From Nereocystis luetkeana (lineage: Eukaryota > Sar > Phaeophyceae > Laminariales > Laminariaceae): a DNA stretch of 64,000 nucleotides. The translations under genes were made by a program, and so were the position numbers. The DNA is taken from the NCBI GenBank assembly GCA_031213475.1, contig JARUPZ010000010.1, positions 6,736,776-6,800,775 of the forward strand. The letters run 5' to 3'. The notes under the pieces are model-generated. The model did no database searches, was not told where the DNA came from, and was given only the letters and a program-made list of their open reading frames with translations. Below, in pieces: positions 9,801-42,172 of this stretch; the first letter of the stretch is position 1; each line of letters starts with the position of its first letter.

Positions 9801-12800
9801 CCACCCTTGGTTAAAAAACACGCCTCCTGACCCCCCCCCCCTCTCCCTTTCTCTCTCGCTCTCTCCTTGCCATCCGTTATCTTACCTCGAAAGCCTGACT
9901 TGATATAGGTCGTAGGAGTAGAAAAGGCACATCGCGCACTCCAGCCACATAGACCCCAGCTGGGTTGGTCGCCACCCTGATCGGGTATCGGTGCGGCGTG
10001 GGTGCGTGCGCGCGTATGTGGGGGAGGGTGTACTCGATATCATGCATGGGCGTAGTGGTGTGATCATACACCCTCGCATCCCCACAATGCCGGGACGGAG
10101 CACGTCGGGTTTTTGTCGACCAGGCAGACATTGACTGCTTGCACCAAGCGCGAGGCGCCTTTATGTGTTCGGCGAAGTCGCATGGAGGGTGAGCTGCATC
10201 CTACTGACTGCGTGGTAGAAGTGTACCCCGGCGAGTACCCGCCACAAACGGGTACCATATGACACTCGGATACTTGTGAAAGCGAAACCCGAACCCGTCG
10301 CGGGTAACCCGGATTTTCAGACGAAATCAGTCGTGTTCAACGAGTACTCGGGTAAAAACCCGGGTACTCGAACAACCCGTTTTCGTTTACGGTCATCGAG
10401 GGGTATTACAGGGCAGCCGGGGTAGGGGAGGCAAGTAGACAGCCTTCACACCTTCGACAGATCATCTACAGATCGTCTACAGATCGTTTACAGATCATCT
10501 ACAGATCATTCCCACTTCATGGCCTAGATATTTCAAGGGGAATATATTCCTGATCTGTGTGATCTAGCTCATGTTGCAGGGTGGGACCCGTATAATCTGC
10601 ATAGTCTAGCACGCGTTTACTGGGTTGGATCTGTACTACAACAGATCCTGCACAACCAATCACAACGGCAGCTGAGGACCTATACGATCTATCTGTAGAC
10701 AGATAGACCATGATCTGTCCCAGGTGTGAAAGCTCAGCGTCCTACGAATACTATTCACACGCACCAGTGCAGAAAAGGCACGTACTACACATTATTAGAC
10801 TTAGCAAGGGACCAGAGCATACAAAACGGCCGACCTATAGTATCTATTTATTGTGGTGTTGATGGTTCTCTCATTTCAATCACTGAGTTTTTTTTTCCGC
10901 CGGAAATTCGCCGGAAACATCTCTTCACAACAGGTGAGAGGAAGGAGGCTTTTAACCCTTTTAGGACCGCAGTCCCGTTGTGGGGACAAACTACTCGGAA
11001 TTTGACTAGTTTGTTCCCAAAACGGAACTGCTGTACTAAAAGGATCAAAAGGGCAAAAAGGACAAACAATCGACGACTACAACATTGGTTCTCGGCCACA
11101 TGTATAAAAACAGGGCTGCAGAGTTGGGAAAATGTCGAGGCATAAAAACGCAGCGCCTGATATACTGTAGAGTACATATCAGACGTGTTCTACGATAGAG
11201 GTAGCACACTTCCGCTATGTTTTTTCTGCATGACGGGGTTCCTTAACCCAAAATCGTCGTATTGCCAACCTTGTTCGGAAAATGACGTTTTTGTTTACTT
11301 GAGCCACGGTATTAGTCATCGGGATGCAATTTGGGTTTTTGCTGAAGTCAGTTTTCGGGTGAGGTATGGAGCTCCTTACGCGAGCAGCCTCAGCAAGTTT
11401 ATGGTGAACCTCTATCGTCGAATGCCTCATCATATAAAGTACCAAAGGGGCAGCACCACACGAGCATCGAATCATGCTTCTTTCTACGGCTTGGCCCAGC
11501 TCGGGCAAAATGGATTCTATGTAAGCATCAAAACCAACACTATCTGCACGGCTATCTCACAGCAGTATCTGCTGTAGTAGCTAGCTTATAGTAGCATAAC
11601 TATTTACAAAATGTGACGAATCGTCGTTTTTTAGCGTTCTTTAGGGATGAGGGTTAGCCAGGGGTTTTTGTTGTCTGAACTTCACGGCTACCTATTACGG
11701 GGGACCATAGTAAATAGGACCAAATATTGTTGGGAAAAATAGCGAAATACATAGGTTGTGTGTATACCGCAGGTCCTATTTATTATGATCCTGCGTGATA
11801 GTAGCTGGATGTGACCGAGTAGAGCCGTGCTACATATGCAATGTAACAGGGGTAGTGTAGCACCTTTTTGCCCTATGAGGCAACAATTGTGACTGACTAT
11901 TAGTATCTTCCTCAACTGAGGACCTTCCATGGCACCCGGTAAGGCATTGCCTTTACAAGGCATCAAGGCTTTTGAGGCATGCCTTATCGTTGGAATATCA
12001 TGTCTATTTCACAGTATTACTACACGAAGTAAGAAGTACCTGGCAGCCTTAGAGCTTAGAGCTCATGGGATTGGACATCGGGCTTGGCTTCCAATAGTTT
12101 GGTACATAATTTTGTTAAAATAAAAAAATAAAAACAGCTGTGAGATCGAGAATTTCGTCGAAACTCATCTTGGCAATATGTGTGTGGCACGATCAATCGC
12201 TTACGATCGCGCGTGCGACGCGTTTTCTATGGCCTCATGCAGGGTATACAGTCCACATACGAGGAAGACAAAATACGAAGCTGCAGAGTTCAAGGACTCA
12301 TACGAGGGTGTCACGCGCACCGCGGGTGTGTATGGACTCGTGCAGCACACACCCCGTACATGACAAAACACAAAATCTGCTCCACTAAGAAGCGGCAGAA
12401 TTCAGGGACTGAGCGTGTGTGTGTCTATATTCGGAAATTAACGTTCCGAGGTTGGGGGTACCTTGCCACCAGTAGACAAAGTTCCTCGCCTGAGGAATCC
12501 CAGAACGGTGCCAGGTACCAGGTGGGTGTTATCCCCACCGTAACACACGTCAGTTATAACCCTTTTAGGACTGCAGTCCCGTTTTGGGGGCAACCCAGTC
12601 AAATTCTGACTAGTTTTGTCCCCAAAAACGGGACTGACTGCAGTCCCATCAGTAGCAGGTTTTAACCGTTTCAGTCCTGCGCTGCGCAGAAACATATATT
12701 TGGCTCATAACTCCCGATTCTTAACTCCCGAGCGATTTATTTGTCCCGAAAAAACGGAAGCGCGGGTCAAAAAAAGGGGTCAAATTAAGCCGACCGACTG

Positions 12801-27597: not shown

Positions 27598-27619
27598 AAA
27601 TGGTGCCAGCATTGACACT

Positions 27620-27729
27620 ATTACGGGGGGCCATAGTTAATAGGACCTATGGTATACATAAAAACCTATATATTGGACCATTTTTACTGACAGTATTTGG
27701 TCCTATTAACTATGGTCCCCCGTAATAAT
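27620..27729. mobile_element. MITE-1 copy
   Basis: ATTACGGGGGGCCATAGTTA and TAACTATGGTCCCCCGTAAT are near-perfect terminal inverted repeats around ACATAAAAACCTATATATTG. Confidence 0.85.
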
Positions 27730-28099
27730 AGTTCACGGCTAAATATCGCACATGTAGTTTTTGGTTGTTGGCGGCATCGCTTCAAGCTTTTGCTTTCAGT
27801 GGTCTGGATTTTCTGTCGTTTCATCACGTTTTTGTTATGGACACTCACTCACGCTATCACACGGGTACACCTTCTCATATGGCAGAAGCAATATCAATAC
27901 CAGGTAAAACTACAACAGCAGTGGTAGTGGTCTACTGCAGTCAGTCAAGATGAGTGTATTATAGCAGTAACATTACATGCTGACTGCACACAACAAAAAA
28001 GTGCTGTATTTGGGTAGTAATGTGTGTGTTCTTCACATTGAACCGTTCTTTCTACCCGTCGACATTTTTTTTTTGCTCATCCCATTTATTATCTTCGCA

Positions 28100-30902: not shown

Positions 30903-31013
30903 TTATTAGGGGGGGGCATAGTAAATAGGACCAAATATTGTTACCAAAAATAGGTGAATGTATAGGCTTTTGTGTGTACCGTAGGTCCTATTTACTATGA
31001 TCCACCGTAATAG
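30903..31013. mobile_element. MITE-1 copy
   Basis: GGGGGGGCATAGTAAATAGG on the left and TCCTATTTACTATGATCC then ACCGTAATA on the right, with arms in the inverse order. Confidence 0.75.
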
Positions 31014-31486
31014 TTGGAAACAGAGCTGGGTCACATTTTCAGTACGTACGTACTCCTGTAGTAGTCCGAGGGAAACCTAAACCTCAGTGTGGCGAAAAGG
31101 GATGGGGGAAATAAAACCCGGCTGCTGGACCCGGCGCTGCCTGTGGGTTGGGGGATGATGCGCTTGGTATCGGGAGTTATGATACTACAATAGTATATAG
31201 CTACAGTACTATGCACACTGCAAGGGCTTCTGCAGCAGCAATTTCTCAAGTACAACACGCTCGGTACAGCATGCTACGTACGTACCAGGTATGAAACAGG
31301 TAACAGGTAACGTACGCGTAAATCGTACGAAGTCGACGCTGCGGTCCTCTTTTGTTCTTGTCCGTTGCCGCCTTTGCTCAGAAGGAAGGCCAACTATTGT
31401 ACGAGTACTGCTGTACATAATGTAGTTTCGTATTAATTGCAGCTGCTGTATGCCAGGAAACACGACTATTTTGACCAATACCTGGT

Positions 31487-31594
31487 ATTACGGGGGGCCA
31501 TAGTTAACAGGACCAAATATTGTTCGTAAAAATAGTTAAACATATAGGTTTTTATGTATACCATAGGTCCTGTTAACTATGGTCCCCCGTAATA
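31487..31594. mobile_element. MITE-1 copy
   Basis: ATTACGGGGGGCCATAGTTA and TAACTATGGTCCCCCGTAAT are near-perfect terminal inverted repeats. Confidence 0.85.
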
Positions 31595-32950: not shown

Positions 32951-33457
32951 TGACCACGCCTCCAAGGATCGGTGATCGATACCGACCTGACACAATGACC
33001 TTGCTCTCGCTTATTGACCTGTTTCTCCCTCTCGCTCTCTTTCTCTGACCCCCCCCTGCTCGATTGCGCCGTTGAATCTATAATATACTGCTGTACACTG
33101 CTGTTGTCAGGCACGCACCAGTTTTGCAATCCCCTTTACAGTTTATATGTTCCAGCACTAGCAGGGCCACCGCAACTCCAACAGGCGACTTTGAGCGAGG
33201 GTGCCTAAAGGGGTTGTACGCCAATCCGTATCATTTCGAGTATATCCCACACAGTGTACGAAAGTCAGGTAGGCAATACTGCTGCCGCCCCGCAGAAATA
33301 TCCCTCCTCCTCTCTCAGTTTCAAGTACAATAAGGCGAGATTGCTCATACGCTGGACACTGTAGGTAGTGGCTGCTGTACGTGCGCAATCTAATCACACC
33401 CTGGACGAAAGACTCACCAATGGGTCTGCCACTACTGCTGTTGTTGCTGATATTATT

Positions 33458-33567
33458 ATTACGGGGGACCGTAGTTAACAGGACCTATGGTGCACATAAA
33501 AACCTATATATTTAACAATTTTTACTAACAACATTTGGTCCTATTAACCATGGTCCCCCGTAATAGT
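33458..33567. mobile_element. MITE-1 copy
   Basis: ATTACGGGGGACCGTAGTTA and TAACCATGGTCCCCCGTAAT enclose the standard core. Confidence 0.85.
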
Positions 33568-34353
33568 ATGATCTCAGGTACATCCAAGAAAAGCGTCAAA
33601 TTTCTTTTTCAGGAAACACCTACTGTAAACTGGTATTTGTTTTGCTGGGTGAGAGCCCACTATAATAGTGTACAGCAGTACCACCCTACACCCCATGGGC
33701 TGGAGCGATCAAGTAACATAACATCCCAGAGTTGTTTGTGAGAGCTGGCTCGGGAATGTTACGTGTGAAGGTATTACCTACCAGGTACTACCTGGTAAGT
33801 TATAGGGGTAAAAGATCGATCGATTACCCCGCCCATGGTAATCCTTATGACACTCTCCCCCCCTCCGAACGGCGGGATTTTGGGGCGTCGGTACCGTATA
33901 CGGCCTTACGCTGACCTACCCGCTTCGTTTCAATAACTGGGTGTTGGAGCGACGTACCTAACGTACCTAAAACTTCGGCCCGTACCTAACGTACCTAACA
34001 CTTAGGCGAGGTACCTGGATCCGCACTTAGCGCACATATAAATTAAGTAAGGTATTGAGGTCGTCCCCAGCCTCCTACCCAAACCCGGGTATTCCGCCGA
34101 CGGGAATATACCCGATACCCGGGTAAGTATTTCAACAGTAGTAAACCTATTTATTATTATTCCTCTTGCCATCAGACAATGTGCAGCATGATCTTCAACA
34201 TGGATCACTCATAACTTTCCCGAAAGAAGAAAACCTCGGAAACAAAAGGAAACCCATGCACCAAGTCTACCTCCCTTCCGTGCCAACTTTCAGCTTGTCT
34301 ACTCTATTTGCTGTATTTGCTCCTTCCTTCTCATTACGTTCTATCCTTAAACC

Positions 34354-36227
34354 CTAAACTGCATCCAAGCTCCATCCCCACGCCATCGGTGTGGGTCTGT
34401 CGTCCCTCCCCCCCCTGTTCCTTCTTCCTTCTTGGCGGTCCCTAAGCTGAAGCTTGAACCTCGACACCCTCCTCGAAATGGCGACCTGAGTGGTCACCGA
34501 GACGATTTGGAGCAGGCGTTCCTTCACTACCCCCTTCCTTGCCATCGACCCACCATCCCTCCCCCCCACGACGCTAGCTGCCAGCTGGTCGATGAAGTTG
34601 CTGCCCTCTACCCCGAGGCGCCCAAAGCTTTCCACCGCTAAGGTGGCTAGTTTGCGGCTCCGCTCGTCGAAGGACACATGTCCCGGACGCGCGTAGTGTT
34701 GGCGCTTGCGCGCCTCGGAGGTAGAGGCAGCTGATCCATCATGATCAGCGCTGCCTCCTCGCAGGTGGACCTGCGCTTGCGGGTCTGCATGGGTGACGTC
34801 CAGCAGGATGGTCTTTTCCCTGTATTCCCTTTTAGGAGCGTCCCGAAGACCTCCTCTCCTGACAACGATGTCCATCCGCAGGTTCCGGTCTGCAGTGAAC
34901 GGTTCGCCGCTCTCCACTTGGTGAGGGATTCCCAGCCGCTTCAGCGTGCGGGAGATCGCGTGAACCAACGGTTGATGTTGGTTCACCTGTGCCCCTGCTC
35001 TGGGACAGATGCGTGCGTGGCGTGTGTCTATGTCGACTGCCTCGCAGCAGGGGCACCTCACTGCCACGTGCTCCTCGATGCCTATGAAGCGCCTTCCCAC
35101 GCCCACGAACTCCTCTGCTGGTATGACACGGAGCGAGTCTGTTGGCCTCGCCCGAAGGCAAGCAGTGGCTCCTGCTCCTTGTAGGCTCCTGCAGCGAGCT
35201 TTGGCGAAGGCCTTGGTCTCGCTCCCCCCCAGCGGGTCGCCTGGTCCAGGTGGGCGTGCAATCTCCGGTAGCCCCTCCAGCGAAGCTGTGTGTGCAGCGT
35301 GTCGACCCTGATTCACCAGCTTGCCCAACCTCTGTTGAGCCTTCCGGGAGTTGGTGGTTACGGCATCATGCGCCGCCAGCATGTCGGCTTCAGGGGGCCC
35401 TGGGACCAGGTCCCCCTCTGCACCCATGCTCCATTCCAGCCAGGATTCGGGGACGATGCCCTCCATCGCTTCTTTTGTCACGCCCCACGTGTCCCTGATC
35501 TCTCGCAGGCTGCCCCCGAGCTCAGCAATGATGCTCGAATGAGGGAGACCCCTCTTTACCCTGTCTCCTAGCGGGCCCGTGAGGTCTGCTATAACCTCCG
35601 GCAGGATGCCCACCCTACTCCCGATGGAGGCAGACATTCGCCTCGCTTCCGTCGACGGCAGCCCTAACCCTCCTGCTCCCGTCGAAAGGCGTGCTTGGGC
35701 TTGTTGGTAGGGTTTTAGAGTCAGTTGGCTGGCCGGGCACCCCTCCTGGAAAAACGACTGTGCGTCCGCCGCTCCCGGTAGCTCTAGGATATTTTCGTAG
35801 GCCCACTGAGCCCCGTTGTCGGTCCTTCGGCATGCTTCGAGTGACAGCCCCGGGTCCAGAGCCCTTTCGAGGTAGCCCGTCCGCTGCCCGACGGATTCGA
35901 CGGTGATGAGGGCCGCCGCTTGCTTGTCTGGCATGTTAGCGAGGCAGCGTGCAAGGCGGTCCGCGCCTCCGTCCCTCACTACCTCCATTGCTCGCCCCAG
36001 CACGTATTCATCCGAGCCGATCGGGACACCAACCACCGTCACCCCTCCTTCGTCTGCGATGCGGACGTCAACGCTCTCCAGGAGCGATATCTCCTCCGCC
36101 GTCGGGACGTGTCCTTTGGGTGGTAGTGCTACGGTCTTGGCGGGGTTGACCACAATGCCGATGTCGTCTAGCTCTCGCCGGAGGAAGGCAAAAGCTCTAA
36201 TCGTGTTGGCCGTGACCCCATAAGGCC
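34354..36227 (-). CDS. Retrotransposon C-terminal part: RT thumb, CCHC knuckle, restriction-like endonuclease
   Basis: The open frame continues the RT after a one-base shift (GVTANTIRAFAFLRRELDDI then IVVNPAKTVALPP) and stops at 34354. The zinc knuckle is C-x2-C-x8-H-x3-C (CPCCEAVDIDTRHARIC, about 35005-35055). The endonuclease core follows: RMDIVV, then ILLDVTHADP, then a basic EARKRQHYA segment, fitting a PD-(D/E)xK fold with D (about 34870), D (about 34800) and K. This domain would nick the target DNA for target-primed reverse transcription. The frame is also open to 36435, but that upstream part is a shadow of ORF2. Confidence 0.75.
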
Positions 36228-39020
36228 GAGAGATACATCGTCCATGTAGGCGAAGGCTTCCACTCCTTCTCCTTCGAACTCCTGTCGGAAACGCTTCAGC
36301 CCTGGTCTCAACGCCAGACAGAACATTGCTGGCCCCATGGGGTCCCCTTGCTGGACACCGCTGGAGCAGGCGATCGTCCTGGTCTCCCCTGAGTCCATCC
36401 GGAAATACACGTCGGCGGGTCTTGTGCCGTAGCACTTCGCCACAAACGGCGTGAGCGCTGGAACGCAGTTGGCCGCCTCTTCAAGCACCGCCGTCCGTTT
36501 AACCGTGTTGAAGGCGTTGGAGCAGTCCGTTAGGACGACCCAGTTGCCCGTCTCGTGTAACGTCCTAGCCCTCAGTCCCACATGCTCCACTCCTCCGGGT
36601 ACTGCGACCCCAAACTGCCTCACCTCTCGGTTGACCTCCTCCAACCGCGGCCGCCACTGTCGCATAGCCCCCGCGGTGATGAGCTGCCTCCATGTCATGC
36701 CCACGCAAACCGGCCGGCACTTTTCCCCCAAGGCAGTGAGGCTCGACTGCAAGAAGAGCTGCCAGAATTCTGGCGGGAACGCGTCCGGCTCGTCGACGAT
36801 TCTCCGCCAGAAGGCTGTCATGCCCTTTCCGAACTCTTCCCGCCCGATGTCGGTGTGGATGATGGATTGCAGGTGCGCAAAGCGTTGACCATCGTTTCCG
36901 GGGCCTGAAAAGGCACTGCGGGAGCTGATGACGTCGAAGAGCACCTCGGAGGCGTACTCATCGTCAGGGCGCCACGGAGGGGCGTTTCCGTCTTCCACCT
37001 CGGTGGCGGTCGCCAACACCGCCGCCGCCGCCGCCGCGGACACTGCGGCGCGATCTTCGGAGAGGAACTTGGCCACAAGTGTGCTCCACGTCGTTTCGTT
37101 TCCAGCTGATCGTGGCTCTGCTAGCAGGTTCCGAGCTGCCACTTTGACCCCTCCTGCGTGGCGACACGCCGACGACGCCCGCTCCAGCTTCGTCTCCTCC
37201 GAATCTTCTTGGGCGGCATCCCGTCGCCTCAGGTCCCCTCCCCTGGTGAATGCTATCAGCCATGGGAGCAGGAGTACTATATCCCCGCTCTCCACCAACG
37301 CGAACCTCTGTCGCCTCTTGATTCGGCCGTCCGGTGAGTGGAACAGGGCTGGTATGAGGTACCATAGCTTGATCGCCCGTAGGAGCGAGTTCGGCGTCGC
37401 CGACTCTCGGTTCGGCCTGTGCTCTCCCATAGCGTGGTTGAGGATGCCGAGCACGTGAATGCTAATGCGCGCGTGTGCGCCAGCCAACTGCGGTTGCACA
37501 GTTTTCCCGGTTGCGAAACGTTGGCCCAGGTCATCCAAGGAAACGGCATCAAGTGGTGGCCCTATACCCCAGCTGTTCTGGTCCCACCCGTACCAAAGCC
37601 CCCGGCTGCGGAGGTCCTCGTCACCTATGGTCCCCCCTCCCATCCTCGCTGCCCGATTACGAAGCCCCGGGTCCGCTTGGACCGCTGCCTGCAGTGCTTC
37701 ACGTCTTGGATGTTGTGCCCCGCAGTTGGTTGCTGGGCAGCGGAGAGGTGCCGGGGCTGCGCCTCTCGCAAGGGCCTCCACCACACAACGGGCGTGAAGC
37801 ACGTGGCGCCCTTGTCCACATGGAAAGCGTACCGCCCGGTGCCCTAGTTGTAGCGTTACACCGCAGACCCCGCACGCCACTTCCCCTGTGGTGTCGCCAA
37901 GGAAGGCCCTGGGGCGCGTCCCGTTCCCGGGTCTCCTCCCCGACGCCCTGGGAGATCCTCCGGTTGGACCCTCGTCGTTTGGCATCCCGGACCCCCTGTC
38001 TTCCATTGCGGCTCCTCTCCCTCCACTTATTTGGCCCGTCTCTCTCCCTTCTCTCCCCCCTCTCCCCCCCCCATTCCGCGGCCCTCCCGTTTCCGGTTCT
38101 CCTCTACCCTCACTATCTCTCTCCTCTCTGGTAGGTTCGCTCCTGGTACCCCCCCCCCCTCCCTCCGCTTCCCCCGCCTCCCTCCCTCCCTCCACCCCGC
38201 CCCCCCCCTGTCCCCTCGCTTCTCTCGCCCCCCCCCTCGCCCCCGCTCCTCCCTCCCACCCCCTGCCTGCTGGCGAAGGTGGCGCACTACCCCCTCCCCC
38301 CGCTCTCATCGCTTCCCCCGCTCCTCCCGCTCCCCTCGCTGCTCCCGTTCCCCCCGCTCCCTCCGCTCCCCCCTCTCCCCCCGCCCCCCCCACTCCCTCC
38401 ACTCCCTCCGCTCCCCTCGCTTCCCCCGCTCCCCCCGCTCCCTCCGTTCCCCCTTCCCCCCCCACCCCCCCCGATCCCTCTGTCCCCCCCGGTCCCCACG
38501 CTTCCCCTTCTCCCTCCGCTCCCCCCACTCCCTTCCCCCCTCTCCCCTCCCCCCTCCCGTTTACTGAAGAGGGTGGCGCACTACCCCCCCGCCTAGCGTT
38601 TCGCCCCGTACTCGCGTCGGCCCCTCTCCCTGCACTGCTTCCTCGTGGACCCCTCCCAGAACCTCTCGATCGGCCTCGTCTACCCCTTGCGATCGCTCCC
38701 CCCTCCCTGCCGTTGGTTGGCACTGTCGGTCCGGGGGTTGTCGACGCTGTCTCGGACCTTGTCCAGGGCGTTCTGGGTTTTTCTGCTGGCGTGGTATCCC
38801 GGCTTCCCTCGTTTTGGTGGCTCTCTGAGATACTCGGAGCTGCGCGTTCTTGCTCCAGCTGCCCTCTCCTCATCGGATCTCTGTCTAGCGCCGGCTCCAT
38901 TGCCCCCGGCGAGGGCGCCGCCTCCACCGGAAAGGGAGGGAGCGCGCTGCGTTCCGCCAGCGCGTTTTGAACGCCGAGAGTCCATCTCGTCAAGCGTTCC
39001 TCCCACTCAGCGTCGAGGCC
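36214..39020 (-). CDS. Retrotransposon ORF2: Gly-rich region, RING-like finger, reverse transcriptase
   Basis: Counting residues from 38993: a charged start; a low-complexity Gly/Ala/Glu/Arg block at 90-330; a RING-H2-like finger at 374-424 (C-x2-C-x14-C-x4-H-x2-H-x2-C-x15-C-x4-C); then reverse transcriptase from about 690. RT motif A is LTDCSNAFNTV (Asp 823), motif B QQGDPMGPAMF, motif C AYMDDVSLG (916-919). After LMG the frame runs out and coding continues in the frame of 34354-36227. No ATG starts the frame; it is open upstream into the end of ORF1, so the product may be part of one polyprotein. The C-rich plus strand makes long opposite-strand frames that are artefacts. Confidence 0.75.
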
Positions 39021-39022
39021 CG

Positions 39023-41119
39023 CTAAGTATTCTTGAACATGGGCCCAATGTAGAGCCCCCGGTTAGTTAATCGAAGCAGGACATCCTGCGATCGAATCCC
39101 GAGCGCGGCGAACCGCGTACGGTAGCGGCCGACGGCCACTTCCCATTCCCTCGAGCGTGGGGAATCAAGGTAGGCCGCTTGAGGCAGGCCCAGAGCATCG
39201 CTGAACAGGGAGCACAAGAGGGACGAAGAGGTTGGGCTCCTCCCGTGGGCACGTACCATGTGCTCGAATGAGCTGTATACGCCGGTTGTCAGGTAACTAG
39301 CCGGCCCCGGTCTTGGGGCGTCCCGTTGAAGGAGGTCGGCGAACTGTGTGGTGCTCCTTAACGTTGCCCATCTTCCCCCCGACTCCTCCATTGGTAAGCC
39401 ACTAGCAAGCTCCGCCGGGTGGGGGGGTCGTCTTCCCCCGCCCCCCTCGTGGCGGCATGCGACGCAGGACCTCGGGTCTGTATGCCCTCTCGCGAGGCGG
39501 TCTGCTCGTTCCAGCATGCAACTGGCGTGCACAAGCCCCCCGTGGGAGCACGGGACGGGTACTTGCCTGTGAATGCCCCTCGACGCCTCTGCCGAGTCTT
39601 CCAGAGCCTGTCCGCAGTACGTGCACTCTGCGTCTTCCTCCTCTCTCTCCCTCCCTTCTGCCTGTTGGGTCTGAGGTGGGTCCACGACGTCCTCATCCTG
39701 CGAAATCGCTGACCGCCACGATCTTTCCCGTTGTCTCCTTCTATGGGCGCCCATCACTGTAGCGCCGTCATAACGTAGGTGTAGCCTCGGCAGTATCTGG
39801 GTGAGACGAAACGCTCTCCGACGGAGCGGCCCGTTCCCTTCTGGGATGGCTACCCCGAACCGATCGTCTCCCCTTCCGGAGGCCCCCTGTACGTTCTCCT
39901 CGGCGCACTCCGTATGAGCGAGCCAACCTGCGAAAGAGAACCTGTTACGGTCTGTAACTTGCTCTCCACAGGCCCCGCACGGCGCTTCCACTTGTGCTTG
40001 CTGGGGGGCCGTGCCACGCCAATCTCCCCAGATATCCTCCTCCCCTCTCTCAGTTGCGCTCCTCGACAAATCTATCGTTCCAGTTGGGGTGGTGGACCCC
40101 CCGTTGAGGCGGAGCTCCGCAGCGTTGACCCTGGCACCTATGGCTCTCTCTTCCGCCGTATCCGCCGATCTACCGAGACCCCTGATCCGTTGGAGAAGAG
40201 GGTGAAGATCCACATCTTGGTGTACCGCATGTAGAGCCGGGTTCGGGCACGTGACCTGGTGTGTGATCGTACGTGTCGCGTTGGCCTTGGCTCGGGGAAT
40301 TGCATCTTCAACAAAGCCTAGGGCGCAACGGCGGTGCATCTCGCATGAGCAGGACACACGCACGAAGGCGATCTCCTCCACCAGTCCGTGGCAGATGCTG
40401 CATATCACTCGCCCTCCCCTACCGTTCCGTGTGGCCCTGGTGGATGACCCCCCTCCTCTCCTAACCGGCACCTCACGCCATGCGACCGCCATCGCCTCTG
40501 ACATGACCTCTTCGCTGTGCTGTCGGAGTGCTATTATGTCGGTTTCTTCGACTGTTGCGGTAGCTCTGCATGCCGGGCATCGTAGGTCGGTTGCCGCTCT
40601 GACGCGGAGGGCGGCATAGCAAGGCAGGTGGAGTCGGTGAGGGCAGCTGCCGAGATGGACCATTGGGGCCACCAATGCCTCGTAGCACACGCAGCAGTCT
40701 TCCGGGGGTTCCACTCGGGGATGCCCATTCTCTGCGGGTGGCGGCGGCGGCGGCGATTCTGGCGTCGACGCTGATCCCGAGCTCCCCCCCTCCCGCGCTC
40801 CTCCAGGCGTCGTCGGTGGCGTCCTTGGTAGCGGCGTCCGCGCCGGTCCGGTCGCTGGCTGCGATGACGTCACATTCGCCAGCACCGCTTCCGGTGTCAA
40901 GAGCGGCGTCCCTGTCGAAGGGGGTGCCCCTGTCGGCAACGACTGCCGTGGCTCTGTCACTGGTGACGGCAGGGGTGGCGTGTCAGCCTGTGATGCGGTC
41001 GGTGGTGGTCGCGGTGTCTCCGACGGTGACGGCGCGCGTATCGAGCTCGCTGGTGGAGGCCGCGGCTCTGCTTGGGACTGCCCCGTTGGCTGAGGCTGCC
41101 TTGGGCGCGGCTCGAACAC
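39023..41119 (-). CDS. Retrotransposon ORF1: multi-RING zinc-finger protein
   Basis: 698 codons from a GTG at 41119; the frame is open further upstream, so the true start is uncertain. Residues 1-135 are Pro/Ser/Thr-rich. Finger 1 (142-184) is a textbook RING-H2: C-x2-C-x13-C-x-H-x2-H-x2-C-x13-C-x2-C. Finger 2 (240-300) begins C-x2-C-x13-C-x-C-x2-H-x2-C and has an atypical last pair. Finger 3 (381-405) keeps only C-x2-C and H-x2-C. Finger 4 (499-555) is C-x2-C-x21-C-x-H-x4-H-x2-C-x17-C-x2-C. RING-H2 fingers typically recruit E2 ubiquitin-conjugating enzymes, so E3 activity is possible; nucleic-acid or protein binding only is the alternative. No RNA-recognition motif is seen. Confidence 0.7.
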   Translation of the reverse strand: MFEPRPRQPQPTGQSQAEPRPPPASSIRAPSPSETPRPPPTASQADTPPLPSPVTEPRQSLPTGAPPSTGTPLLTPEAVLANVTSSQPATGPARTPLPRTPPTTPGGAREGGSSGSASTPESPPPPPPAENGHPRVEPPEDCCVCYEALVAPMVHLGSCPHRLHLPCYAALRVRAATDLRCPACRATATVEETDIIALRQHSEEVMSEAMAVAWREVPVRRGGGSSTRATRNGRGGRVICSICHGLVEEIAFVRVSCSCEMHRRCALGFVEDAIPRAKANATRTITHQVTCPNPALHAVHQDVDLHPLLQRIRGLGRSADTAEERAIGARVNAAELRLNGGSTTPTGTIDLSRSATERGEEDIWGDWRGTAPQQAQVEAPCGACGEQVTDRNRFSFAGWLAHTECAEENVQGASGRGDDRFGVAIPEGNGPLRRRAFRLTQILPRLHLRYDGATVMGAHRRRQRERSWRSAISQDEDVVDPPQTQQAEGREREEEDAECTYCGQALEDSAEASRGIHRQVPVPCSHGGLVHASCMLERADRLARGHTDPRSCVACRHEGGGGRRPPHPAELASGLPMEESGGRWATLRSTTQFADLLQRDAPRPGPASYLTTGVYSSFEHMVRAHGRSPTSSSLLCSLFSDALGLPQAAYLDSPRSREWEVAVGRYRTRFAALGIRSQDVLLRLTNRGLYIGPMFKNT

Positions 41120-41336
41120 TTCCGGTTGTCGTGCTGTTGGAGATAGGGTTGGAGTCTCCTGCAGCGTCTGTGACGGCGGCTGCGGGGGCGTGGGAGGCCT
41201 TTCTTCAGAGGTGGGTTGCAGACGCGCTGGTGTAGGGGTCGGGGAGTGAGTCCCGGTCGTGGCTGGTGGCCTATCGTACCTTAAACTTAGATAATATATC
41301 GTGGTCCGTACCTAACGTACCTAACATTTAGGTAAG

Positions 41337-42172
41337 GGCCCATCTTAACTGGGACTTTTATTTTTTCAACTTGAGTTTTTTGTTTTTTTCTAATTTAGTT
41401 TGCATCTGATTGGCCGAAGAGTGAACGACCAAGCAGGCAAATTAGAAAATTTCAATTTGCGTGAAAGTCTGTAGGGACTTTTTTCGTGTGTTTTTTTTTA
41501 ATTTCTACCAGGTATTTGGAAATTTGGAGTTCCTCGGTCTTGACGTAGCATATTCATGGTGGGTCAACACCCTCGGTGGAGTCTGGGGCGATTCTTGGCC
41601 ACTTCGGTGACCACGATCGAGGCGATAAAACTCGAACCTCAACGAGAGGTGACCGGAGCAATAGCCGCGCCCACGCCCACACCATAGCACATCGTACCCC
41701 GGCGGTGGCGCCTCAAAAGTAATCATGGCGGCCGCAATCCCAATTTTTCGGCCTGCTAAATCGGCCAACAATCACGAAAACCGAGCAAACGAGCAAAAAA
41801 ACGGAGAATACGCCCGAGACCTCGATAGCTGCATCACCGCTGCTGTTCCGCACGTAGCGCTTGAGGGCTTCCTCCGCCCACCCAAGACACCCTGAGAGTT
41901 GTAGCTTCCTATCCTGCGCGACCAAAAAGAAAAAGAGGCTAGCGGCGGCGCGCACACGGCAGCGCAAACCTTCGCTCCCGTCTACGCGCGTCGTTATTTG
42001 TCGGCTGGGCGTTGTGCGACGCGGTGCGTTTTTTCCGAATTCTTTTTTGATTTTCAACTAGTGCGCTGTTCCCCGATAGCACACAAACACGTTTTTTTTT
42101 CGAATTCAAATTAAAATTCATTGAAATTGATTTTTTACTTCCATATAGCGTTCCCCGTTAAGATGGGCCCGA
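41337..42172. mobile_element. Non-autonomous element with GGGCCCATCTTAAC terminal inverted repeats
   Basis: The left end GGGCCCATCTTAACTGGG (41337-41354) is matched by CCCGTTAAGATGGGCCC (42156-42172) in inverse orientation. The interior has T-rich flanks and a GC-richer middle with no recognisable transposase. A target-site duplication is not evident. It abuts the 5' end of the retrotransposon. Confidence 0.5.

Follow-up and report, generated by a model that had tools for sequence, protein, structure and literature searches.

The best explanation for the 64,000-nucleotide stretch of Nereocystis luetkeana DNA analysed here (the window) is, in our judgement and with slightly better than even confidence, that it carries a copy of a giant R2-like non-LTR retrotransposon with a single ORF, and that this copy is dead and truncated at its 5' end. 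In this explanation the protein of the element includes a RING-H2 finger, F1, which may recruit E2~ubiquitin; the latter function is the less certain part. The features on which the argument is built are as follows.

34151-41270, minus strand: 5'-truncated LINE copy, the homology block that it shares with copies elsewhere in the genome; it ends with a short tract of AAT/TAA
39023-41311, minus strand: frame named ORF1 in the first-pass annotation, 762 codons from stop to stop
40568-40696, minus strand: F1, RING-H2 finger (C206, C209, C223, H225, H228, C231, C245, C248)
40229-40402, minus strand: F2, eight-ligand C4-H-C-C-H site (C304, C307, C321, C323, H326, C329, C355, H361)
39905-39979, minus strand: F3, four-ligand half finger (C445, C448, H466, C469)
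39455-39625, minus strand: F4, expanded eight-ligand site (C563, C566, C588, H590, H595, C598, C616, C619)
39041-39437, minus strand: CTD, conserved domain C-terminal of F4, delimited by alignment and extending to about 38930 in the other frame
36168-39062, minus strand: frame named ORF2, with a Gly/Arg-rich linker, F5, a pre-RT region and the reverse transcriptase (RT) with YMDD
37722-37874, minus strand: F5, RING-like finger before the RT (C397, C400, C415, H420, H423, C426, C442, C447 of the 36168-39062 frame)
36228-36563, minus strand: RT core, PF00078 (RVT_1), located with Pfam
34354-36480, minus strand: third frame, with the rest of the RT, the thumb, a Cys/His knuckle (35005-35055) and a restriction-like endonuclease-like region

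The coordinates and ligand patterns that the first-pass annotation had given for the five fingers, including the atypical F2 and the four-ligand F3, proved to be exact.

The genome of this alga (465 Mb, 1987 contigs) was searched for copies of the element, and twenty copies were taken in with their surroundings, at about 10 kb per locus. In blastn comparison with these 20 copies, the window copy matched most members of its own subfamily (A) at about 94-98% identity. A second subfamily (B), represented by locus L027, was 56% identical over the ORF1 query. The two subfamilies share one layout, that is, a Pro/Gly/Arg-rich N-terminal part, the zinc sites, the RT and a C-terminal endonuclease-like region. 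The zinc sites of the element are five (F1-F5), and those of subfamily B are six, F4 and the domain that follows it being duplicated there.

The ligands of F1 are spaced as C-x2-C-x13-C-x-H-x2-H-x2-C-x13-C-x2-C, which is the order and spacing of a RING, and all eight are conserved in subfamily B. Among the real frames, F1 alone fitted the regular expressions used, while F4 and F5 did not, and none of 2000 shuffled versions of the ORF1 frame contained the RING pattern. When F1 was scanned with Pfam as an isolated segment, zf-RING_2 matched with E values of 7.2e-5 (window) and 3.6e-5 (L027), and further RING-type models matched too; the Pfam scores of F1, like those of F5, lie under the curated gathering cut-offs. 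The zf-RING_2 match was weaker in long pieces (8e-4 in the window frame and 0.016 in the finger region of locus L019), and Pfam gave no RING match for a 1208-aa L027 piece containing F1. With the whole window frame as the phmmer query, the best E value was only 0.08, for DTX2. Ten shuffles that kept Cys and His in place (seven of F1 and three of F5) yielded one weak RING match (E 0.036). A six-row F1 profile run against the PDB found eight different sequences at E<=0.1, each of which contains a RING (DTX2, DTX1, AMFR and NSE1, the last of which we take to be a RING protein), and the best match, at 6.7e-5, was in two pieces. AlphaFold2, run on F1-F4 with a shallow alignment, gave a pLDDT of 36 and no usable fold. 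By sequence, F1 reads as a RING-H2 finger.

The residues V208, L235 and P246 of F1 were found in 12/12 other aligned rows and R249 in 11/12; these rows comprise 8 near-identical copies of subfamily A, 2 of subfamily B and 2 of a third group. We take the four residues to lie at the usual E2/ubiquitin contact positions of RINGs, and we assign to RING positions the Pro after Cys7 and, as the linchpin, the Arg after the last Cys (Cys8). F1 therefore retains the hydrophobic E2-contact residues, the Pro and the linchpin Arg. Passages of PMC8586995 describe a hydrophobic patch through which E3-type RINGs contact the E2, a linchpin arginine conserved in RING E3s, and an RBR ligase RING1 that has no linchpin arginine and is unable to promote transfer alone. 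With these positions kept, F1 can credibly be seen as an E3 module, and ligase activity of F1 is plausible.

The strength of selection was estimated by comparing L019 with L027. The dN/dS value of F1 was 0.073 with a dS of 1.25, the lowest of 13 regions. It was followed by the endonuclease region (0.112), F2 (0.128), the RT (0.131), the pre-RT region (0.156), the CTD (0.17), the F3-F4 interval (0.23), the thumb (0.24), F3 (0.30), F4 (0.32) and F5 (0.35), and the two linkers gave 0.31 and 0.43; all these values are rough, F1 having 50 codons only and synonymous sites being near saturation. F1 is thus under strong purifying selection. Judged by identity alone, the stretch of F1 was outscored by 78 of the 2378 overlapping windows of 50 residues.

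The first-pass annotation had named relatives lacking the finger ligands as one refutation of its reading, and in a distant subfamily the ligands are kept. The ligands of F1-F4 were identical between the window and L027 at 28/28 positions, against 105/152 for the other finger positions (Fisher p 1.1e-4), and those of F5 were 8/8 in 5 rows. Single ligands were lost in single copies, for example by a change of His to Gln in F1 of locus L017, and L019, which is one of two uninterrupted copies, lacks the first ligand Cys in F4 and in F5, as expected of decaying copies. In 20 more divergent F1 copies, ligands were kept in 106/152 cells and other residues in 426/690, which is no significant excess; we read these copies as dead relics, and they lend no support to ligand conservation.

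The other fingers of the ORF1 frame gave a different result. The annotation had counted four RING-like fingers there, of which F1 stood as a RING-H2 by HMM and PDB matches, and F2, F3 and F4 were not established as RINGs, since no RING model of Pfam matched any of them as isolated segments. F2, whose ligands are conserved in subfamily B, had no Pfam match of any kind. Its profile gave 5 PDB hits at E<=5, among them KMT2D segments (E 0.04), which are presumably PHD-type, and NSE1 (0.65), so that F2 may be called RING/PHD-like, its class being unproven. The ligands of F3 are conserved in subfamily B and in the L029 and L030 pieces. Neither F2 nor F3 fits the RING ligand order and spacing. In F4 all 8 ligands are invariant in 6 aligned sequences and their order is RING-like; the spacing is looser, Val stands in place of the Pro, and the Arg is present in subfamily A only. 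The F4 profile found zero matches in the PDB. No PHD match was obtained with Pfam for the window fingers, and RAG2_PHD matched the duplicated F4 of L027 at E 0.06.

The fifth finger, which had been placed in ORF2, fared better. Isolated F5 matched zf-RING_16 at E 5e-5 (window) and zf-RING_2 at E 7e-4 (L027, subfamily B), both below the Pfam cut-off, and 8 of the 9 weak PDB matches of its profile at E<=1 were RING proteins (best E 0.03). Its eight ligands are invariant in 5 aligned rows, in RING order with looser spacing, and we regard F5 as RING-like on this sequence evidence. When profiles were compared with hhalign, the F4-F5 pair was similar (E 5e-5) and scored above 80/80 shuffles. The pairs F1-F5, F1-F4, F1-F2, F2-F5 and F2-F4 did not rise above their own shuffles, F1-F5 scoring 18.1 against shuffle maxima of 21.0 and 19.0. 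Four F3 pairs were scored without shuffle control, the best being F2-F3 (E 0.0013).

The module formed by F4 and the CTD is present twice in L027 and in locus L028 (subfamily B), and at least 151 matching stretches, several as adjacent pairs, were found in the genome of the alga. AlphaFold2 on this module with a shallow alignment gave a pLDDT of 43. For F2-F5 and the CTD, a role as binding modules is the better reading.

The same reading could be extended to every finger. That is, F1 too may be only a structural or a nucleic-acid- or chromatin-binding zinc module, and the fingers may position the protein on its target DNA or its own RNA with no ubiquitin involved. RING folds also act as plain binding modules, and R2 carries zinc finger and Myb motifs at the position corresponding to the fingers. 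This alternative is a possible one to which we give somewhat less than an even chance. In its favor are the failure of F2-F4 to match RING models and the KMT2D segments among the weak matches of F2, and PHD fingers are described in CR1/L2 LINEs (PMC4120745). Against it, F1 matches the RINGs of E3 ligases best, and a structural finger would not need the hydrophobic, Pro and linchpin-Arg positions that F1 keeps.

We return to the explanation of an R2-like element with a RING-H2 finger, for which we propose the following mechanism. The protein of the element would bind its own RNA and insert by target-primed reverse transcription, which fits the 5' truncation and the TAA-tailed 3' ends. Less certainly, F1 would recruit host E2~ubiquitin and ubiquitinate a partner to which the CTD or the other fingers bind. 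This partner could be a silencing or chromatin protein present at the target, or else the RNP of the element itself, and the remaining fingers would serve as binding modules. The first-pass annotation had suggested a ligase acting on host silencing, and such an action is conceivable. A bolder version, in which the retrotransposon brings its own ubiquitin ligase and RT in one polypeptide, F1 ubiquitinates host silencing or chromatin factors or the own RNP at the insertion site, and F2-F5 with the CTD, a module of which is duplicated in one subfamily, are substrate-recognition units in an arms race, seems to us rather unlikely.

LINE proteins with PHD fingers and esterases (PMC4120745) and with Ulp1-like proteases (PMC4640811) are already known. 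At the level of titles and abstracts, the literature searched described no LINE with RING fingers, and the "ring finger" of PMC5678591 was rejected as a precedent, as the term refers there to the 'ring finger' of the RT. Within that literature, a RING-H2 constrained at least as strongly as the RT would be the first sign of a LINE coupling retrotransposition to ubiquitin transfer. It would mean that nature has fused a ligase-like module to an R2-like integration enzyme, and it would offer a directly testable handle on how brown-algal transposons handle host silencing.

That the fingers accompany an RT-bearing R2-like element, as had been claimed, was borne out. RVT_1 matched the ORF2 frame of the window with an E value of 8e-11 (4.5e-11 in another scan), and a four-row RT profile retrieved two PDB sequences at E<=0.01, both of them R2 retrotransposon proteins (6e-4 and 8e-4). 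We call the RT R2-like on these profile matches. No AP endonuclease domain was found in the Pfam scans of the pieces scanned. The C-terminal region has knuckle-like Cys/His and acidic residues that are mostly conserved, the first knuckle Cys being Tyr in L027; we take such a cluster to be the motif of the R2-type restriction-like endonuclease. Its profile gave no endonuclease match in the PDB, and the region is presumably a restriction-like endonuclease.

The copies end 3' in TAA tracts. The 70 bp beyond the TAA tracts of 10 copies, compared by eye, showed no common sequence that would point to site-specific insertion (that of L019 is still TAA repeat), and only short possible target duplications were seen, ATAG for the window copy and ATGTG for L018. 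According to PMC4640811, most RLE clades are mostly target-specific, and HERO has many members that are not. In L019 (about position 655, oriented), in L018 (about 1568, oriented) and at the 3' end of L014, copies or 3'-end pieces lie head-to-tail on the TAA tail of another copy, a possible sign that TAA microsatellites or the element's own tails are preferred.

With the R2-group RLE LINEs (R2, R4, NeSL/Utopia, HERO and CRE), the element shares a single ORF, an R2-like RT, zinc sites N-terminal of the RT, a Cys/His knuckle, an endonuclease-like C-terminus and 5' truncation. It differs from them in its size (12.4 kb, with an inferred protein of about 3.3 kaa), in having RING-type fingers where the others have C2H2 or Myb domains, in the duplication of F4 and the CTD in one subfamily, and in that no fixed target was seen. 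We would class it among the R2-like LINEs, as a new variant. The LINEs listed in the Ectocarpus survey are likewise from a brown alga and consist of two LINE/CRE families, that is, of the CRE clade; its main text, on which the comparison is based, mentions neither RING nor ubiquitin nor OTU, and the same family could be concerned (PMC12477816). The CR1/L2 proteins, as described in PMC4120745, also have a RING/PHD-type zinc finger, but it is a PHD and not a RING, and they have an AP endonuclease and often a separate ORF1; the combination of AP endonuclease and PHD finger was not found with Pfam in the scanned pieces of the algal element. F1 resembles the RING-H2 E3 ligases DTX1/2 and AMFR in sequence, in its eight ligands and in its E2/ubiquitin contact positions, and differs from them in being embedded in a retrotransposon polyprotein.

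RING proteins are common in eukaryotes, and a LINE insertion might have picked up a host RING gene or read through it. We consider this very improbable. The finger region has at least 61 matching stretches for the ORF1 frame in the genome of the alga; 18 of these have no internal stop, and some are identical pieces on small contigs. Moreover, the fingers occupy equivalent positions in two subfamilies whose F1 dS is about 1.25, and no host-only relative of F1 was recognised among the 150 matches listed, match contexts apart. Identical match scores recurred on several small contigs (C449, C1300, C1519, C1661 and C1850; C1047 and C1); these are probably duplicates or haplotigs in the assembly, by which the copy counts are inflated. 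Relatives outside this genome were not confirmed among viral contigs searched with one RT and with an RT alignment, among genome contigs, or among phages searched by protein and by 10-kb flanking DNA.

Even less credible is a real two-ORF element in which ORF1 is a separate accessory RING protein, as the first-pass annotation had it. The two frames are indeed separate in the window copy, with a short overlap. However, the homology begins abruptly at 41270 and ends at 34151, while other copies among the 20 loci continue upstream; the window copy is thus 5'-truncated. The first 14 or so codons of the ORF1 frame are flank, its first Met is residue 217, inside F1, and comparison with other copies indicates that the frame begins about 1025 codons into that of the element. 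The frame of the window copy is broken near 39.04 kb, between ORF1 and ORF2, and again near 36.2 kb. In contrast, the stretches that correspond to ORF1, to ORF2 and to the third frame form one open frame of 2485 aa in L019 (contig C7) and of 2954 aa in L027 (contig C23), the protein across the ORF1/ORF2 junction (HVQEYLAGLDAEWEERLTRWTLGVQ) being identical in the two. The third frame is also continuous with the RT in both copies (dN/dS 0.11). Unless both copies are fusions, they refute the two-ORF reading. Thus, as in R2-group LINEs, there is a single ORF, of which ORF1 is an internal part, broken in the window copy.

As for the whole element, the two subfamily A copies with fetched 5' ends have about 2.2 kb in common, after which a frame starts with Met. 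One of them measures about 12.4 kb to the last stop, which leaves space for about 3337 codons. The 3' part of one of these two copies is interrupted by an assembly gap. Because no fetched copy was open throughout, the total of about 3.3 kaa for the full protein is an inferred one. The common 5' region (L031 with L016, L032 with L014) begins with GCGAGCAAGC and contains direct repeats of 70 bp as well as a long tract of GA. Pfam had no match for the N-terminal parts L031:2932-3999, L016:3-2552 and L027:1020-2555. In subfamily B the N-terminal part (L034:1701-2933) contains four tandem repeats (LSFCPLPAGRGR.RTLPAWMQPRI...), and subfamily A has two weaker ones.

A chance spacing of Cys and His in a low-complexity frame, which the Gly/Pro/Arg-rich linkers around the fingers might suggest, was rejected for F1 and F5 and is the least probable reading of all, given the 0/2000 shuffles, the low dN/dS values, and RING HMM and PDB matches well beyond those of shuffles that kept Cys and His.

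Several repeats were also observed. The same TTAGGTACG-type repeat lies on both sides of the LINE copy (33953-34003 and 41307-41357, 7354 bp apart) and is perhaps an older repeat tract neighbouring the insertion or split by it. A short palindromic repeat of about 110-125 bp, with arms TATTACGGGGGACC.../GGTCC...CCCCCGTAATA, occupies 33449-33573; similar stretches at 30904-31012, 31486-31594, 11692-11803 and 27617-27730 make it a possibly MITE-like family. EsV-1-7 repeats, a domain that has proliferated in brown algae according to PMC12477816 and by which we take the host to be one of these algae, were found above the Pfam cut-off at least 150 times in the genome of this alga and 0 times in 14 control genomes.
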